Assembly: GCF_026210795.1 (NCBI RefSeq)
Contig: NC_089460.1
Location: 1,756,001-1,820,000 of the forward strand
Direction: 5' to 3'
DNA length: 64,000 nt
Source: Rhizophagus irregularis
Taxonomy: Eukaryota; Glomeromycota; Glomeromycetes; Glomerales; Glomeraceae
The notes under the pieces are model-generated. The model worked only from the letters and a program-made list of their open reading frames with translations, ran no database searches and was not told the DNA's origin. Numbering within the stretch: position 1 is the first letter of the stretch; each line of letters begins with the position of its first letter. This document shows positions 44,603 through 52,292 of this stretch, piece after piece. The position numbers and the translations under genes were made by a program.

Positions 44603-44726
44603 CCGTAAAATCTTGAATTTAAGCACCTACCGAATTTAAGCACCTCTGTCACTTTTGCTGCAATGTCTGTATAAACTAAAATCTAACACCTCTAAATTTA
44701 AGCACCCCTAAATATAAATTTTACGG
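44603..44726. mobile_element. Possible 124-bp pogo-type MITE or duplicated transposon end
   Basis: CCGTAAAATCTTGAATTTAA at the left and, read inward from the right, CCGTAAAATTTATATTTAGG, with TA on both sides. AATTTAAGCACC occurs three times inside. It is either an independent MITE or a rearranged end of the larger pogo element. Confidence 0.5.
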
Positions 44727-45109
44727 TACAAAATTACGTAATACGATATATCAAAATTTTATTTTTTTTAAAAAATTATTTTGGTATAGCAAAACTCTTT
44801 TATACACCAGCGTTAATTGATAAAATTTTTCACAAATAATAATAAAATAACTATATAAACACAAAACATTTTTAATTTATTTCATCCTTTTTTAAGTTAA
44901 AAACATTTATTTCGGCCTTTTTTAAAGACACTTTTTTACAATTCCCTTTTAAGTTAGTCTGAAAAAATTATTTTTCTTATTGTGGGAATATCTGACAACT
45001 TTGATGAACGGACTTAATTAATATTATGGTAAATTAAAAAGGGAAAGGGTATAGATTAAGAAATGTAAATAAGAAATGTTCTAAGCTTTAACATTTCTTT
45101 TCTTCATTT

Positions 45110-45315
45110 TTAAGGACACCAGCGGACCCAACTTCTTGGAACTTAAATGGACTGAAAGGTAAATTAGATAGTTGTTTTTTGTTTAATTTAAGTTTGAATT
45201 TTTTTTAATATTTTCTTTTGTATTAAGAACAGCTTTGGATTTTTCGAATTAAATGTGATGAGATTATGCCGAACTATGACAATAAACTTATTGACAATAT
45301 CGAAATGAATGTAAG
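45110..45315 (+). pseudogene. Two exon-like fragments, unidentified
   Basis: After a TTTTTAAG acceptor-like site, a fragment reading GPNFLELKWTE (45128-45162) ends at a GGTAAAT. After TATTAAG (45226) follows EQLWIFRIKCDEIMPNYDNK then LIDNIEMN ending at GTAAGA (45312). They look like two exons of one gene on the plus strand, opposite to the transposase, between the transposase stop codon and the left inverted end. Family unknown. Confidence 0.35.
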
Positions 45316-45586
45316 AAAATTTTTTATTTGGTTATTTAATTGCAGACAATTTCAACATCATCACCTAACTCTTCTAAATTTCCTTTTTCATACTCAGCAA
45401 TCAATCTATTAATTTCTTCATAGACTATATTATCCTCTGACCCATCCAATAAATTTGAAATAGAACATTTTTTAAATGAATTAAAAATAATTTGATCTGA
45501 AATGGCATTCCAAGATCGTTTGACCCATCCACATACTTCACTTATCCTTGCTTTTTTTAAGTTACCCCTTCAGTTACACTTGAACC

Positions 45587-46867
45587 TAAAGCTCTGCATG
45601 AGCTGAGCCGGCTCACGAGCTGGCTCAAGCTTTTCAATCTGAGCCGAGCTGAGCCACGATTAAATTGGCTTAGTGGCTCGCGAGCTAGCTTGAAATGAGC
45701 TCGAGCCGGTGATAAGTTGACTAAAAAAGCTTCAAGCCAGTAATAGGCTCAGCTCAAAAAGCTCGAGCTGGCTTGAGTTATCATACAAAAAACGTTGCGA
45801 AAACGTTTTTTGTATAATATTATATTAAAAAAAGCGATTTCGAACGTTTTTTAATTCTTTAGTAAAAAACGTTGCGAAAATGTCTTTTTCACTATATTAT
45901 TTTAGAAAAAAATGTTTTGCAACGTTTTTTTAAATTCTTTAGTAAAAAAATGTTGCGAAAACGTTTTTTTCATTATCTAATATTAGAAAAAAACGTTTCG
46001 CAACATTTTTCTAAATTCTTTAATAAAAAAATGTTGCGAAAATGTTTTTTTCACTATATTATATTAGAAAAAACGTTTCTACGCGTTTTTTAAGTTCTTT
46101 AATAAAAAAACATTGCGAAAACGTTTTTTTCACTATATTATATTGGAAAAAAACGTTTCGCAACATTTTTTTAATTCTTTAGTAAAAAATGTTACGAAAA
46201 CGTTTTTTTAATTCTTTAGTAAAAAACGTTGCGAAAACGTTTTTTTCACTATATTATTTTAGAAAAAAACGTTTCGCAATGTTTTTTTAAATTCTTTAAT
46301 AAAAAAACGTTGCAAAAACGTTTTTTTCACTATATTATATTAGAAAAAATGTTTCACAAGCGTTTTTTAAGTTCTTTAATAAAAAACGCTTGCGAAAACG
46401 CTTTTTTTCACTATATTATATTAGAAAAAAATGTTTCGCAACGTTTTTAAGTTCTTTAATAAAAAACGCTTGCGAAAACGTTTTTCACTATATTATTTTA
46501 GAAAAAAACGTTTTCGCAACGTTTTTTTAAATTCTTTAGTAAAAAAATATTGCGAAAACGTTTTTTTCACAATATTATATTAGAAAAAAACGTTTTGCAA
46601 CGTTTTTTTAAGTTCTTTAATAAAAAAACGTTGCGAAAACATTTTTTTCACAATATTATTTTAGAAAAAAATGTTGCGAAACGTTTTTTTGAAGATAAAG
46701 CTCGAGCCTGGCTTGGCTCGAGCCATAAAAATCACTGGCTCCATCGGCTCACTTTAGCTTGAGGCCGAAACCTTTTATGGTTCGGCTTATTCTGGCTCAG
46801 GCCAAATTTTTTTCGAGCTGAGCCGAGCCAGACTGTGGCTGCGTCAAAGCACTCATGCGGAGCTTTA
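45587..46867. mobile_element. 1.28-kb TIR element with perfect 8-bp target duplication
   Basis: Ends TAAAGCTCTGCATGAG at the left and TAAAGCTCCGCATGAG read inward from the right (15 of 16 identical). The flanks CTTGAACC (45579-45586) and CTTGAACC (46868-46875) are a perfect 8-bp duplication, as made by hAT-type transposases. Subterminal 200 bp on each side are packed with AGCT, GAGCC and CTCGAGC words, unusual G+C here. The centre is an 81-bp tandem array. There is no transposase frame; open frames of 70-73 codons follow the repeats. It sits inside the pogo-like transposase gene, codon frame GGT TCA AG. Confidence 0.9.
45790..46695. repeat. About 81-bp tandem array of AACGTT-type hairpins, ten copies
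   Basis: Each unit reads AAAAAACGTTGCGAAAACGT then TTTTTCACTATATTATATTA then GAAAAAAACGTTTCGCAACG then TTTTTTAAATTCTTTAGT. The two outer words are inverted complements (AACGTTGCGAAAACG against CGTTTCGCAACGTT), so each unit can fold into a hairpin with a TATA-rich loop. Spacing of the CACTATATTAT marker is about 76-82 bp with one 116-bp unit. Confidence 0.9.
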
Positions 46868-48659
46868 CTTGAACCACTTTTACACATCCATTTGTACCAT
46901 TCTTTTCATAAATTATCTTTAAAAGGTTTGTTTATTGATACGTCTAATGGTTGACATACACTAGTTAATCCTCCAGGAATAACAGCTAATTGAAAATTAT
47001 GTTCTTTAAATTTAGCTTTAACACTTTCTTCCAAGTAACCACGAAAAGAATCATACAACATTATAGCAGGTTCTTTTGACAAATTTTCAGACATCCAAAT
47101 TTTAAATAAAAAATCAATGTAATTCTTCATTAAGTCTGAAGTCATCCAACCTTTATCTTGAAACTAACAAATAACACCTTTTAGAATAACTTCACCTCTT
47201 GGAAGTTGTTTACCTTTAAAAATACATATTGGTGGATATTTTGTTCCATCTATAAATAAATACAATGAACTTATTAATTTGATATATAAAATAATTAAAA
47301 AATAAAAAAATAAAACTTCTTACCTGCAGAACAAGTTAGAACTACAGTAAAATGATTTTTATCATTTCCAGTAGTACGAATATGCACTGTTTTATCACCC
47401 TTATTATTAACAGTTATATTTCCTGCCATGTCAAACTATACAGGAGTTTCATCCATATTAAAAATACTATTCAAATTAAAATTATATAGTGTTCTTAGTC
47501 TTATAATATATCGTCTAAATTCATCTAATTTTTCTTCTAAATCCTCAGGCAATTTTTGAAAAATTTTGGTTCTTCTCCTTAATGACAATCCAAATCGTTT
47601 CATAAAAGAATTAATCCAAGAAAGATTCCCTTGGAATTCATACTCTTCCGCTAGATATAATGCTTGAATTGAAGATTCTTTAAGAATTTTACACATTTGT
47701 AATCTTATGGAGATATAATTAACAGTAAACCCTTTTTTCCGCTATTCTATTATCCAACTGTATAAAATCTTTTTTGCTTTAGGATAAAAGGCTTTTCTTC
47801 CTGGAGTTTCAGAACGTTTTTTCTTTTTATTTTCCTCTTCCCATTTAGAACTTTGTCTTATCCATCTTCCTACCATAGGTGCATCTAAATTAAAATGCTT
47901 TGCTGCAGCATTTCTTTTATTTTCTTGGACATACTTAACTACTATTAATTTTTCTTCAAGTGAATATGATGTACACACTGGTCGAAATAGTCCAAATCGG
48001 CTAGAAATCAGATGTCCGATTTTAGGCTGAATTTGGTGATAAAGATGGCCGAATTATCAATCCAAAAAAAGTTCCGATTGGCAGGCCGATCGATGCCGAT
48101 CAGAATGTCAGAATTGTATCCGAATTGTTTAGTAATTTTTGATTCGAATTGTTTAAAAAATATTTTCAGATCAAGATAAATTTTGCCTGAATTATAGCAA
48201 TTTTAGTTTGAATTTTGTCTGAATTATGGCAAATTTTAGATGATTTTTTTCGAATTTTGTCTGAATTTTGTCTGAATTTTGTCTGAATTTTAGATTGAAT
48301 GTGGATGATTTTTCCAAATTTAGTTTTAATTTTATTCAATTTTATTAGACATTTTAAATTACATTGTTATTAAAAATTACATTTAATATATATTCTTTAA
48401 TTAATATGTCTACCTTTCTAATCTAAAACACACCTATGCTATATTAATACCTATAATAAATCATTCTAAACTCGCTATTTTTAACCTAAAAAATAAAAAA
48501 CAAAAAGAATTAATAAAAAATTAAGCAAAAAACTCACCAACAATTTACATTTTAAAACTCACCTTTAAATTACTTCTATAGCTCCTATACCAAAATCTTG
48601 CGTGCCAAATATTCGCCATATTTTCATTAATATATTCAAATACTCTCGTTAATAGACAC

Positions 48660-50060
48660 GAAGGCTGGTCGCCTAAAAAAAAGAGTAAAATGAAACGTTA
48701 GTAAAAAACGCTTCGTTAAATGAATTAATTAAAAGTAATAACTAGTAAAAAATATCCCTCACCAAACTTCTGACGAGTCGTCCAAATATCGAAGAACCGG
48801 CCGTCTATAAATAGAAAAAAAATGATACATTAGAAACGTTTCATTAAGAAAATTATTTATTCAAAAAAACTCTATTCGGTGTTCTGGACAAAAAAAAACA
48901 AGAAAAATGAACGTTATCTAACGTTCATTATAAAAAAAATTAAAATATTCGAAGTTTTACCTTCGAAATTCCATTCAGAAGAACTGAAAACCTACAAAAA
49001 ACCAAATGAAACGTTAGTAACGTTTTGTGTTAAATAAAAACAATATTTTCGAAGTTACCTTCAAATGGAGTCTGGGACCTGTATCTTTCTTCGCGTTCTG
49101 GACTTACAAAAAAATAAGAACGAACATTAATTAACGTTCATCAAATAAACACAAATAAACAAAAAAAAAAACTTTTTTTCGAAGTTTCACCTTCGAAATA
49201 GTGCCTGGGAAGCCGAAAACCTAAAAAAAAAAGAAAACTGAAATGTTAGTCAACGTTTCGTTCAAATAAAATAACAAAAAAAAATCGGAATTTCGAAGAG
49301 GTACCTTCGAAATTCCATCCAGATATACGGAAACCGGAGAGCAAAACCTAAAAAAAAAGAAAATAATCGAAACGTTAGTCAACGTTTCGCTAAAATAATA
49401 CAAAAAAAAAAATATCTATGATTGAAGTCACCTTCGAAATGGAGTCTGGAACCGTACCTTCGGCGTTCTGGCTATACAAAAAAATAAGAAAAACGAACGT
49501 TAGAGAATGTTCGTTAAAAAAAAAGATTTTTTTTTTCCGAAGTTTACTTTCGAAATGGAACCGTTCCGTACCTATAAAAAACAAGAAAACGAACGTTAGC
49601 TAATGTTCGTTAAATAAAACTAAGAAAAAATTTCGAAGGTTTATACCTTCGAAATGGAGTCCAGCGACGTCCTGGGCCTGCAAAGAAAAAAAACAACGTT
49701 AGTTACCTAACGTTCCGCATTAAATAAAATAAAAATTCTTCGGGGCTTTACCCTCCTTCCAAGTCTCCGGAAGGTTCCTAAAAGTGAAAAGAAATTGGAA
49801 CGTTTAATAGTAATATCTACTAACGTTCATAACTTAAAAAAAAAACTCTCTTTATTTACTTTCTGAGAAGTTTTGTCAATTACGAAGCGTCTTGAGGGTC
49901 TATAATAAAAAAAAAAGAAGGTGGAACGTTAATAAATGTATACTAACGCTCCAATTTAAAAAATAATCCCTTCTCTCTAATACCTTCTAAGTGCCGTTTC
50001 GTTAGTTCTGAGATTGTCCTAAATGAATTTTTCCACCATTCGCATGAGGATCGGAATGTT
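48660..50060. repeat. Degenerate 100-130-bp tandem array with paired palindromes, about twelve units
   Basis: Units contain a variant of GAAACGTTAGTCAACGTTTC and a variant of TTTCGAAGTTTTACCTTCGA then AATGGAGTCTGG, separated by poly(A). The first word is an inverted repeat around AACGTT; the second pairs TTCGAA with TTCGAA. Examples at 48912, 49010, 49234, 49369, 49496, 49594, 49695, 49800 and 49924. The palindrome is better preserved than the surrounding bases, which differ in length. Confidence 0.85.
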
Positions 50061-50424
50061 AAATGGTGTCCGGAAGGTCCCTACAAAATAAAAAAAAGAT
50101 TGGAATTTTTTTTTATAAAAAAAAGATGGATATCCGATGATCTATCTGATCAACAAAAAAAGAGCTGGTTTTTGGAAATACTGGCATATCAATCTATCGT
50201 TAAAAATTAGGCGTTTTTTTTGCATTTATTAAAATATTTTGCAGAAAAAACATTCCGGTATTTTGCCGATTGCTCCAATTGCTTGTTCATACAATTTCCT
50301 TTTTCATTTTGAATAATTTTTTACTCGCTTAACTCCAAACCTCCTCCATTTGATTTAGCTGATTTGAAAGCTAAAGAGAAACAATTCCGATCTAATAATA
50401 AATAAGGAAAAATATTATTAAATT

Positions 50425-50765
50425 GAAATGCCAGAAATAAAAAAAAAATTATTATTACCGGCATACCAATATCCATCCACAAAATGGGTCGTTAAATCGG
50501 AACATTGGAACCTGCAAATAATAAAAAAAGATATTTTTTTGATACCAGCATACCGATATTATGTACAAATAAAGAATATTTTCATTAAATCGGAATGTCA
50601 GAACCTACAAATGATATAAAAAAATAAAAAAAAAATATTTTTTTATTATTTTCATTTCATTACAGTAAATCGGAATGCTTGGAATAAAAAAAACTTTTGT
50701 TTTCTTCAACACCAGCATACTGATATTTATTAAATCGGAAAAAATTGAAATTCTTTTATCAATTC
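50425..50765. repeat. About 110-bp tandem repeat, three copies
   Basis: Units share ATTACCGGCATACCAATATC and AAATCGGAACATTGGAACCT with AAATAATAAAAAAAGATATT between. It lies inside the CACTG element. Short frames here (50428-50619, 50675-50866) follow the repeat and are not genes. Confidence 0.75.
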
Positions 50766-51104
50766 CCAATTTAAACCATAGAGCAATAAAAGAGAAATAT
50801 TTTGTTTTGAGAAAAAAAAAGGTTAAAAGGTTTAATATTTATCCAAAAGAAGCAAAAAAAAAGTAATCTTAAAGCTAAAATTATACTTTTAATACAATAC
50901 GCGTCGCGTCTTATTATAATTGATCAGCAAATAGTAATTGTTATAATAGTTTAAATAGTTTAATTTTGATTGATACCCAATTGAAATATGAGCAAATTTC
51001 TAATAAATCAAAGTAAGAAAGTACAATTCAATCATAAATAACATATATCAAATAATATGAAAAGATTCGACATTCAATGTCGAATATATCTTATTTCAAC
51101 TAGT

Positions 51105-51785
51105 ATGCCACAAATCAGAAGTGCCAATTTGTAATTTTAGCCAATATTGAGCAAATTTTAGGCTGATTTGCCATTTTTTTTTGATTTTAACTAGCCTCAA
51201 TCAGCCGTCAATCAAATATGATGAATTTTTGCTGAATTTTTATCAAATTTTTATCAAATTTTTATTGAATTGTCAATTTTCCAATTTTCCATAAATCTGA
51301 AGTACATATTTGAATATTGGGCAAATTTTAGGTTGATTTGCGCATTTTGTCTGATTTTTTTTTTGATTTCAACTAGCATCAATCAGCCATCAATCAAATA
51401 TGATGATTTTTTGCCAAATTTTTATTAAATTTTTATTGAATTGTCAATTTTCCATAAATCTGAAGTACATATTTGAATATTGGGTAAATTTTAGGTTGAT
51501 TTGTCATTTTGTCTGATTTTTTTTTTGATTTCAACCAGTATCAATCAGCCGTCAACCAAATATAATGATTTTTTGCCAAATTTTTATTGAATTTTTATTG
51601 AATTTTTATTGAATTATCAATTTTCCATAAATCTAAAGTACATATTTGAATATTGGGCAAATTTTAGGTTGATTTGCCATTTGTCTGATTTTTTTTTTGA
51701 TTTCAACTAGCATCAATTAGCCGTCAATCAAATATGATGATTTTTTGCTGGATTTTTATTAAATTGTCCGATTGGCATCAATCAG
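51105..51785. repeat. About 170-bp subterminal tandem repeat, four copies
   Basis: Copies share AAATCTGAAGTACATATTTG, AATATTGGGCAAATTTTAGG, TTTGATTTCAACTAGCATCA and ATCAGCCGTCAATCAAATAT. Spacing 178, 165 and 172 bp. Near the right end of the CACTG element, the position where CMC transposases bind in known elements. Confidence 0.88.
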
Positions 51786-52292
51786 ATGTGCCGATTTGTA
51801 ATGTCAGTCGATTTTGGTCTGATTTTTAGCTGATTTTCCATATGTCCGATTTTTTTGATTTTGATCAGTGACATTGTCTTACACCCACTTTTTTACGTGT
51901 CATTTCTACTAGAAATATTGTTAAAACGTGTGAAGAATTTTTGAAAGAAATAGGGTAAGATGTACGTTGATGTACATTGATTAAAAAAATTAATAGTAAA
52001 ATCAAAATTAAGCATCATTACCAATTTTGTCTATCACATGACTGCAAAAAGGGGGTGCTTAAATTCGAGATTTTACAGTACTTTTTTTTTCTAAATAAGT
52101 AACTTTATTTTGATCAATAAAATAAAAAATTAAATTATATTAACTTTCTTTAGGTTTTTTTTAATATATTTTATAGTAAAATTGATAATTTTTACTAATT
52201 TGCATTATTTAGTTTTTAATGGCTTATTATTTAGAATTTGGATTCGTGTATCCATCTATCTATAAATATATATCTATAATAAAAATTTAATA

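Follow-up and report, generated by a model that had tools for sequence, protein, structure and literature searches.

A pogo-type transposon of Rhizophagus irregularis interrupted by CACTA/EnSpm and hAT elements

Rhizophagus irregularis is an arbuscular mycorrhizal symbiont. We analyzed a stretch of 64,000 nucleotides of its DNA (C32:1756001-1820000, contig NC_089460.1; hereafter the window), in which an element of the pogo group of Tc1/mariner transposons holds two further DNA transposons, and searched the 146,748,485 bases of the genome, in 32 contigs (prefix C; loci and fetched pieces carry the prefix L). The nested arrangement is real to the base. With a probability of roughly 97%, we consider that a CACTA/EnSpm element and a hAT element inserted later into an older, low-copy pogo element standing at a TA site. 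Directly visible are three sets of ends with their target duplications, sister pogo copies uninterrupted at the insertion points, and larger relatives of the inner elements that have the same ends and encode matching transposases.

Results

The outer pogo element occupies 44603-52078 and holds the hAT insert at 45587-46867 and the CACTA/EnSpm insert at 47976-51870, both insertion points lying within its minus-strand transposase gene. When the flanks were joined by script, keeping one copy of each duplication, 2,289 bases of pogo were left. The features of the locus, in window coordinates, are as follows.

44603..52078, minus strand: pogo-type (Tc1/mariner) element, about 2.29 kb without inserts, with TA on both sides, inverted ends, DDE_1 and a decayed transposase gene
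44603..44627, plus strand: pogo left terminal inverted repeat, ends read in the window
45339..45569, minus strand: last part of the pogo transposase frame (C-terminus), which follows the hAT insertion and a shift of the frame by 1 nt
45579..45586: left copy of the 8-bp target duplication CTTGAACC, read in the window
45587..46867: predicted non-autonomous hAT element, 1281 bp, with exact ends, empty sites and ends common to the coding copy C4:3982386-3986880
45787..46690: AACGTT hairpin array with an 81-bp period inside the hAT element (repeat analysis, motif counts, folding)
46868..46875: right copy of the 8-bp target duplication CTTGAACC, read in the window
46909..47163, minus strand: DDE_1 part of the pogo transposase (PF03184, E = 4.9e-14 in the window piece)
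47973..47975: left copy of the 3-bp target duplication ACA, read in the window
47976..51870: predicted non-autonomous CACTA/EnSpm element with CACTG ends, 3895 bp, with recurring ends, empty sites and a Transposase_21 copy that has the same ends
48694..49930: degenerate AACGTT hairpin array inside the CACTA element (motif counts, folding)
51282..51765: 173-bp tandem repeat adjoining the CACTA right end, part of which recurs beside other right ends
51871..51873: right copy of the 3-bp target duplication ACA, read in the window
51871..51903, minus strand: beginning of the pogo transposase frame, which reads MTRKKVGVRQC before the CACTG insertion interrupts it and picks up again at 47975 with CTSYSLEEKL
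52054..52078, minus strand: pogo right terminal inverted repeat, ends read in the window

An initial annotation of this DNA, made from its letters alone, had placed a pogo-like element at 44603-52078, with a CACTG-ended insert (3-bp duplication) and a second insert (8-bp duplication) in its transposase gene, and had described three nested superfamilies with different duplication lengths. Both descriptions hold, the lengths being 2, 8 and 3 bp. The inner boundaries are more than chance, for ends like theirs turn up at matching positions in other copies. The annotation had left the inner superfamilies unnamed; coding relatives that have matching ends supply the names here.

The inverted ends of the pogo element read C(C/T)GTAAAATCT.GAATTTAAGCACC and, together with the TA, are common to other copies: the TA target duplication is present at the window element, at all seven other left ends examined and at all four right ends reached. 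DDE_1 (PF03184) scored 1.5e-24 in the sister copy L005, and HTH_Tnp_Tc5 (PF03221) was above cut-off in two sister copies (5e-05 and 3.5e-06). The family thus resembles the pogo group in its TA duplication, short inverted ends, DDE_1 domain and, in sister copies, a Tc5/CENP-B-type DNA-binding domain, and differs from it in being low-copy and in lacking a long open transposase frame, none being seen in the window element or in five translated sister copies.

Nine other pogo loci were listed, of which seven were fetched and two weak ones (C16:1362691 and C20:2344895) left out. At the hAT site (junction A), five of the seven examined (L002-L006) run through without an insert and carry a single copy of the octamer, with 6-7 of 8 bases alike. 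At the CACTG site (junction B), five of six fetched pieces (L069-L073) are uninterrupted, with ACA or ACG in the place of the duplication, and three more distant loci also span the site in one alignment (L081, 84%; L082, 72%; L084, 80%), so that eight of nine other pogo loci are uninterrupted there. Because the other pogo copies that align at either point all continue across it without a break and agree with the joined flanks, the pogo element was inserted before both inner elements; the two inserts are unordered relative to each other. The initial annotation had likewise put the pogo element first, had proposed a genome search with the terminal ends and for empty sites, and had named uninterrupted pogo copies departing from the joined flanks as the observation that would contradict it. 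The search recovered both recurring ends and insert-free pogo loci, and the flanks were matched in the five of seven and eight of nine loci just given.

The same copies bear on a different history, in which the inserts entered the pogo element before it moved here and the interrupted element transposed as one larger unit. The anatomy would allow this, the pogo ends and TA duplication being intact. However, no second insert-bearing copy was found among the five copies that align at the hAT site or the eight at the CACTG site, and the better copies differ in a star-like manner by about 5%, as after one burst followed by decay. We therefore regard transposition of a larger unit as improbable.

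The reading frame gives unequal evidence at the two sites. At the CACTG site it runs cleanly through the duplicated codon (MTRKKVGVRQ-C-TSYSLEEKL), whereas at the hAT site it continues for a few codons only: about 20 nt away, four of five sister copies have 1 base more than the window element (the fifth, L004, is as long as it), and a stop interrupts the nearby KDNL*KEW stretch. The earlier claim that codons on both sides of each insert continue the same protein is thus borne out at the CACTG site and fails at the hAT site beyond those few codons, where the 1-nt difference and the stop intervene. At the hAT site, sister copies rather than the frame carry the proof of insertion.

The terminal 16-mer of the hAT element, which is TAAAGCTC-ended, occurs 150 times genome-wide with at most one mismatch, against 0 occurrences of the reversed control, and the 100 places listed contain, counting that of the window, 17 inverted pairs that span 0.9-4.5 kb. 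Perfect 8-bp duplications flank 15 of 30 hAT loci, again counting the window's (14 of the 29 others), and three of four longer end pairs. No coding sequence was found in the window insert. A 4.5-kb copy at C4:3982386-3986880 has a perfect 8-bp duplication and encodes zf-BED (1.5e-07) and, with its exons spliced, Dimer_Tnp_hAT (2.7e-25), the Pfam match being absent or below cut-off in its other frames; its two ends align with those of the window element at 84% (184 columns) and 72% (97 columns). A genome-wide search for hAT domains, in which 150 of 835 candidates were scored and all 150 matched, did not set this family apart. The insert and its family share with hAT transposons the 8-bp duplication, ends beginning TAAAG and, in the C4 relative, a BED finger and hAT dimerisation region. 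The window copy departs from them in its want of coding sequence and in the 81-bp AACGTT hairpin array that fills its middle.

Duplications of 8 bp are also made by Zisupton/KDZ, P, Merlin and some MULE elements, and hAT elements follow the target rule nTnnnnAn. The 1281-bp insert might accordingly belong to another superfamily: the window element has no coding sequence, the length of the duplication is not decisive by itself, and the 15 perfect duplications fit the target rule weakly, with T at position 2 in 9/15 and A at position 7 in 8/15 in an A+T-rich genome. Against such an assignment stands the C4 copy: it shares the ends of the window element, its 8-bp duplication is perfect, and it encodes a BED finger together with the dimerisation region of hAT. 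These domain matches appear largely to refute a non-hAT origin, which we consider very improbable.

Further hAT-type ends were met at other loci. In L037 and L030, hAT-like open frames were considered as the interior of the element and rejected, the frames lying outside its ends; in L030 a hAT-type end stands at about 1497, some 300 bases past an open frame at 834-1202 that contains a hAT dimerisation region, and in L057 a CACTG end adjoins a BED-finger frame, so that transposon genes also neighbor both CACTG and hAT-type ends. The end pair at C10:1535744-1539223 was rejected as a normal hAT element, having no duplication and flanks that are inverted copies of each other; here (L087, C10:1535724-1539243) the hAT-type ends lie in an inverted duplication whose outer 20-base flanks are reverse complements. 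At C21:3636504-3640556 (L031/L088), the ends of the window's hAT family, with a perfect 8-bp duplication, enclose a PIF/Harbinger-type transposase (DDE_Tnp_4, 1.6e-17), and this locus is another nest.

The ends of the CACTG-ended element recur with similar precision. With 40 of 121 candidates scored, the 39 other left ends start at query positions 2-8, the element itself starting at 7; with 40 of 83 candidates scored, the 39 other right ends stop between 215 and 227, and 29 of these stop at 221-222, where the element's own end is 221. When these scored left and right ends were paired, seven further likely copies emerged, about 4.6-10.4 kb long. The 3-bp duplication is perfect in four of nine end pairs (the window, C10:662k, C27 and C22), agrees at two of three bases in four (C8, C10:5212k, C23 and C2) and at one of three in the last (C7), whose ends are 20 kb apart and perhaps do not belong to one element. 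No transposase was found in the window insert; the 8.4-kb relative at C2:5114490-5122895 contains a 796-residue frame with Transposase_21 (PF02992, 2.8e-11), and its ends are 80% identical to those of the window element over 317 columns and 89% over 685 columns. The window insert resembles CACTA/EnSpm (CMC) elements in its CACTG...CAGTG ends, 3-bp duplication and repeats below the ends, and its family in the tnp2-type transposase found in the longer C2 relative; unlike them, the window copy is without a transposase and carries an AACGTT hairpin array. Because the C2 copy with Transposase_21 and the C4 copy with hAT domains have matching ends, both window inserts are probably non-autonomous and related to coding families that this genome contains.

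That the nest is an artefact of assembly or a chimera is hardly credible: the inserts are highly repetitive and arrays may have collapsed, but the perfect 8-bp and 3-bp duplications lie exactly at ends shared family-wide, and the published assembly of Rhizophagus irregularis DAOM197198 is reported to comprise 32 scaffolds built out of 42 contigs, its read coverage being highly uniform (PMC10234402).

The window pogo element and five other copies (C26, C32 at 1149888, C16, C19 and C2) are 94.3-95.9% alike in all pairs, and because this pairwise likeness is star-like, the sequences suggest one burst. Substitutions private to a single copy, counted where no more than one further copy differs from the majority, number 333, of which 291 are C>T or G>A; per site, these changes are most frequent at CG (68/432), followed by CC (63/780), CA (97/1434) and CT (63/1320). 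The corresponding share in 20 CACTG left ends is 56/112. Cytosine methylation may have produced the excess in the pogo copies. Three of the five other copies hold further inserts of their own, which brings the copies hit by insertions, the window's included, to four of six. These are a 263-bp, short interspersed element (SINE)-like insert with a T-rich end and a long target repeat (C16:1691936-1692198), a 368-bp insert (C2:3368834-3369201) and a 295-bp insert with inverted ends and a 9-bp duplication (C19:1451614-1451908).

Both inner elements carry AACGTT hairpin arrays. The motif occurs 25 times in the 1,281 bases of the hAT insert, against 0.4 in shuffles, and 17 times in the CACTA insert, every time within 48694-49930; the window outside 45587-51870 has 13 occurrences, against 18 expected. 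Single-strand folding gave z = -18.1 for the hAT array and z = -6.7 for the CACTA array (20 shuffles each), and z = -2.4 for another part of the CACTA insert, with one of 20 shuffles as good. On the forward strand genome-wide, AACGTT pairs spaced 2-7 bases apart number 3,812, 6 to 15 times as many as those of three other palindromes of the same composition (TTGCAA, 466; AAGCTT, 259; TTCGAA, 618). Genomic places were listed for 100 of these pairs, all on C1, and the loci examined were those chosen for the hAT and CACTA families. The coding C2 copy shows no excess (1 in 8.4 kb, against 2.8 expected); the coding C4 copy is mildly enriched (8 in 4.5 kb, against 1.5 expected and a maximum of 7 in 200 shuffles), and this makes a strict division into coding and non-coding copies less likely. 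A blastn comparison of the window hAT array with the window CACTA array, as a test of shared descent, gave no match.

Discussion

The evidence is consistent with the following course of events. In the Rhizophagus irregularis genome, a low-copy pogo element would have inserted at a TA site. Its transposase gene would later have been hit twice: at codon 11 of the frame by a non-autonomous CACTA element, whose 3-bp staggered cut was filled in to give ACA on either side, and close to the C-terminal end by a non-autonomous hAT element, whose 8-bp stagger left CTTGAACC twice. Both inner insertions would have proceeded by cut-and-paste, with transposase supplied from elsewhere in the genome, presumably by the C2 and C4 coding relatives or others like them. 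We infer the cut-and-fill steps from the known behavior of these superfamilies.

Several observations weigh against this account. Fifteen of 30 hAT loci are without a perfect duplication, some of them truncated or running past the fetched stretch, and five of nine CACTA end pairs are without one. The pogo frame is broken close to the hAT site. HTH_Tnp_Tc5 reached only 0.048 in the window's own pogo piece, below cut-off. The coding parts of C2 and C4 were assigned to their elements by the outer ends. Finally, three pieces fail to align, L007 and L008 at the first of these sites and L074 at the CACTG site; they neither support nor oppose the insertions.

Because repeats make up about half of the genome (~50%; PMC11075540), a nest of this kind is ordinary. 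CMC and hAT are named among the groups that expanded recently in Rhizophagus irregularis (PMC8647823), and a curated library of its transposable elements names CMC, hAT-19, Tc1-Mariner and Plavaka among DNA transposons, with two-thirds of transposable elements left unclassified by the curation paper's account (PMC11075540). We set the three window families beside this library by group names only, and it may already contain them.

The AACGTT arrays are less ordinary than the nest itself, as the inserts that carry them are unrelated. They could be one satellite that spread, or several families could have reached the same palindrome. It is conceivable, although we think it doubtful, that non-autonomous elements of different superfamilies repeatedly took up or grew these hairpin arrays as a shared working module rather than junk; if so, a host factor might bind to the module, for instance, or its folding back might give rise to small RNA or CpG methylation. 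No paper that mentions AACGTT together with Rhizophagus irregularis was returned by a search of the open-access literature, and searches there on nested transposons of fungi and on satellite or palindromic repeats yielded mainly papers of a general kind.

In a major plant symbiont, these DNA-transposon families now have ends exact to the base, rules for their target duplications and identified coding partners, and pogo relics are seen gathering later insertions. The AACGTT arrays, if common to many families, would raise a question that can be put to the test: how this genome deals with its transposons.

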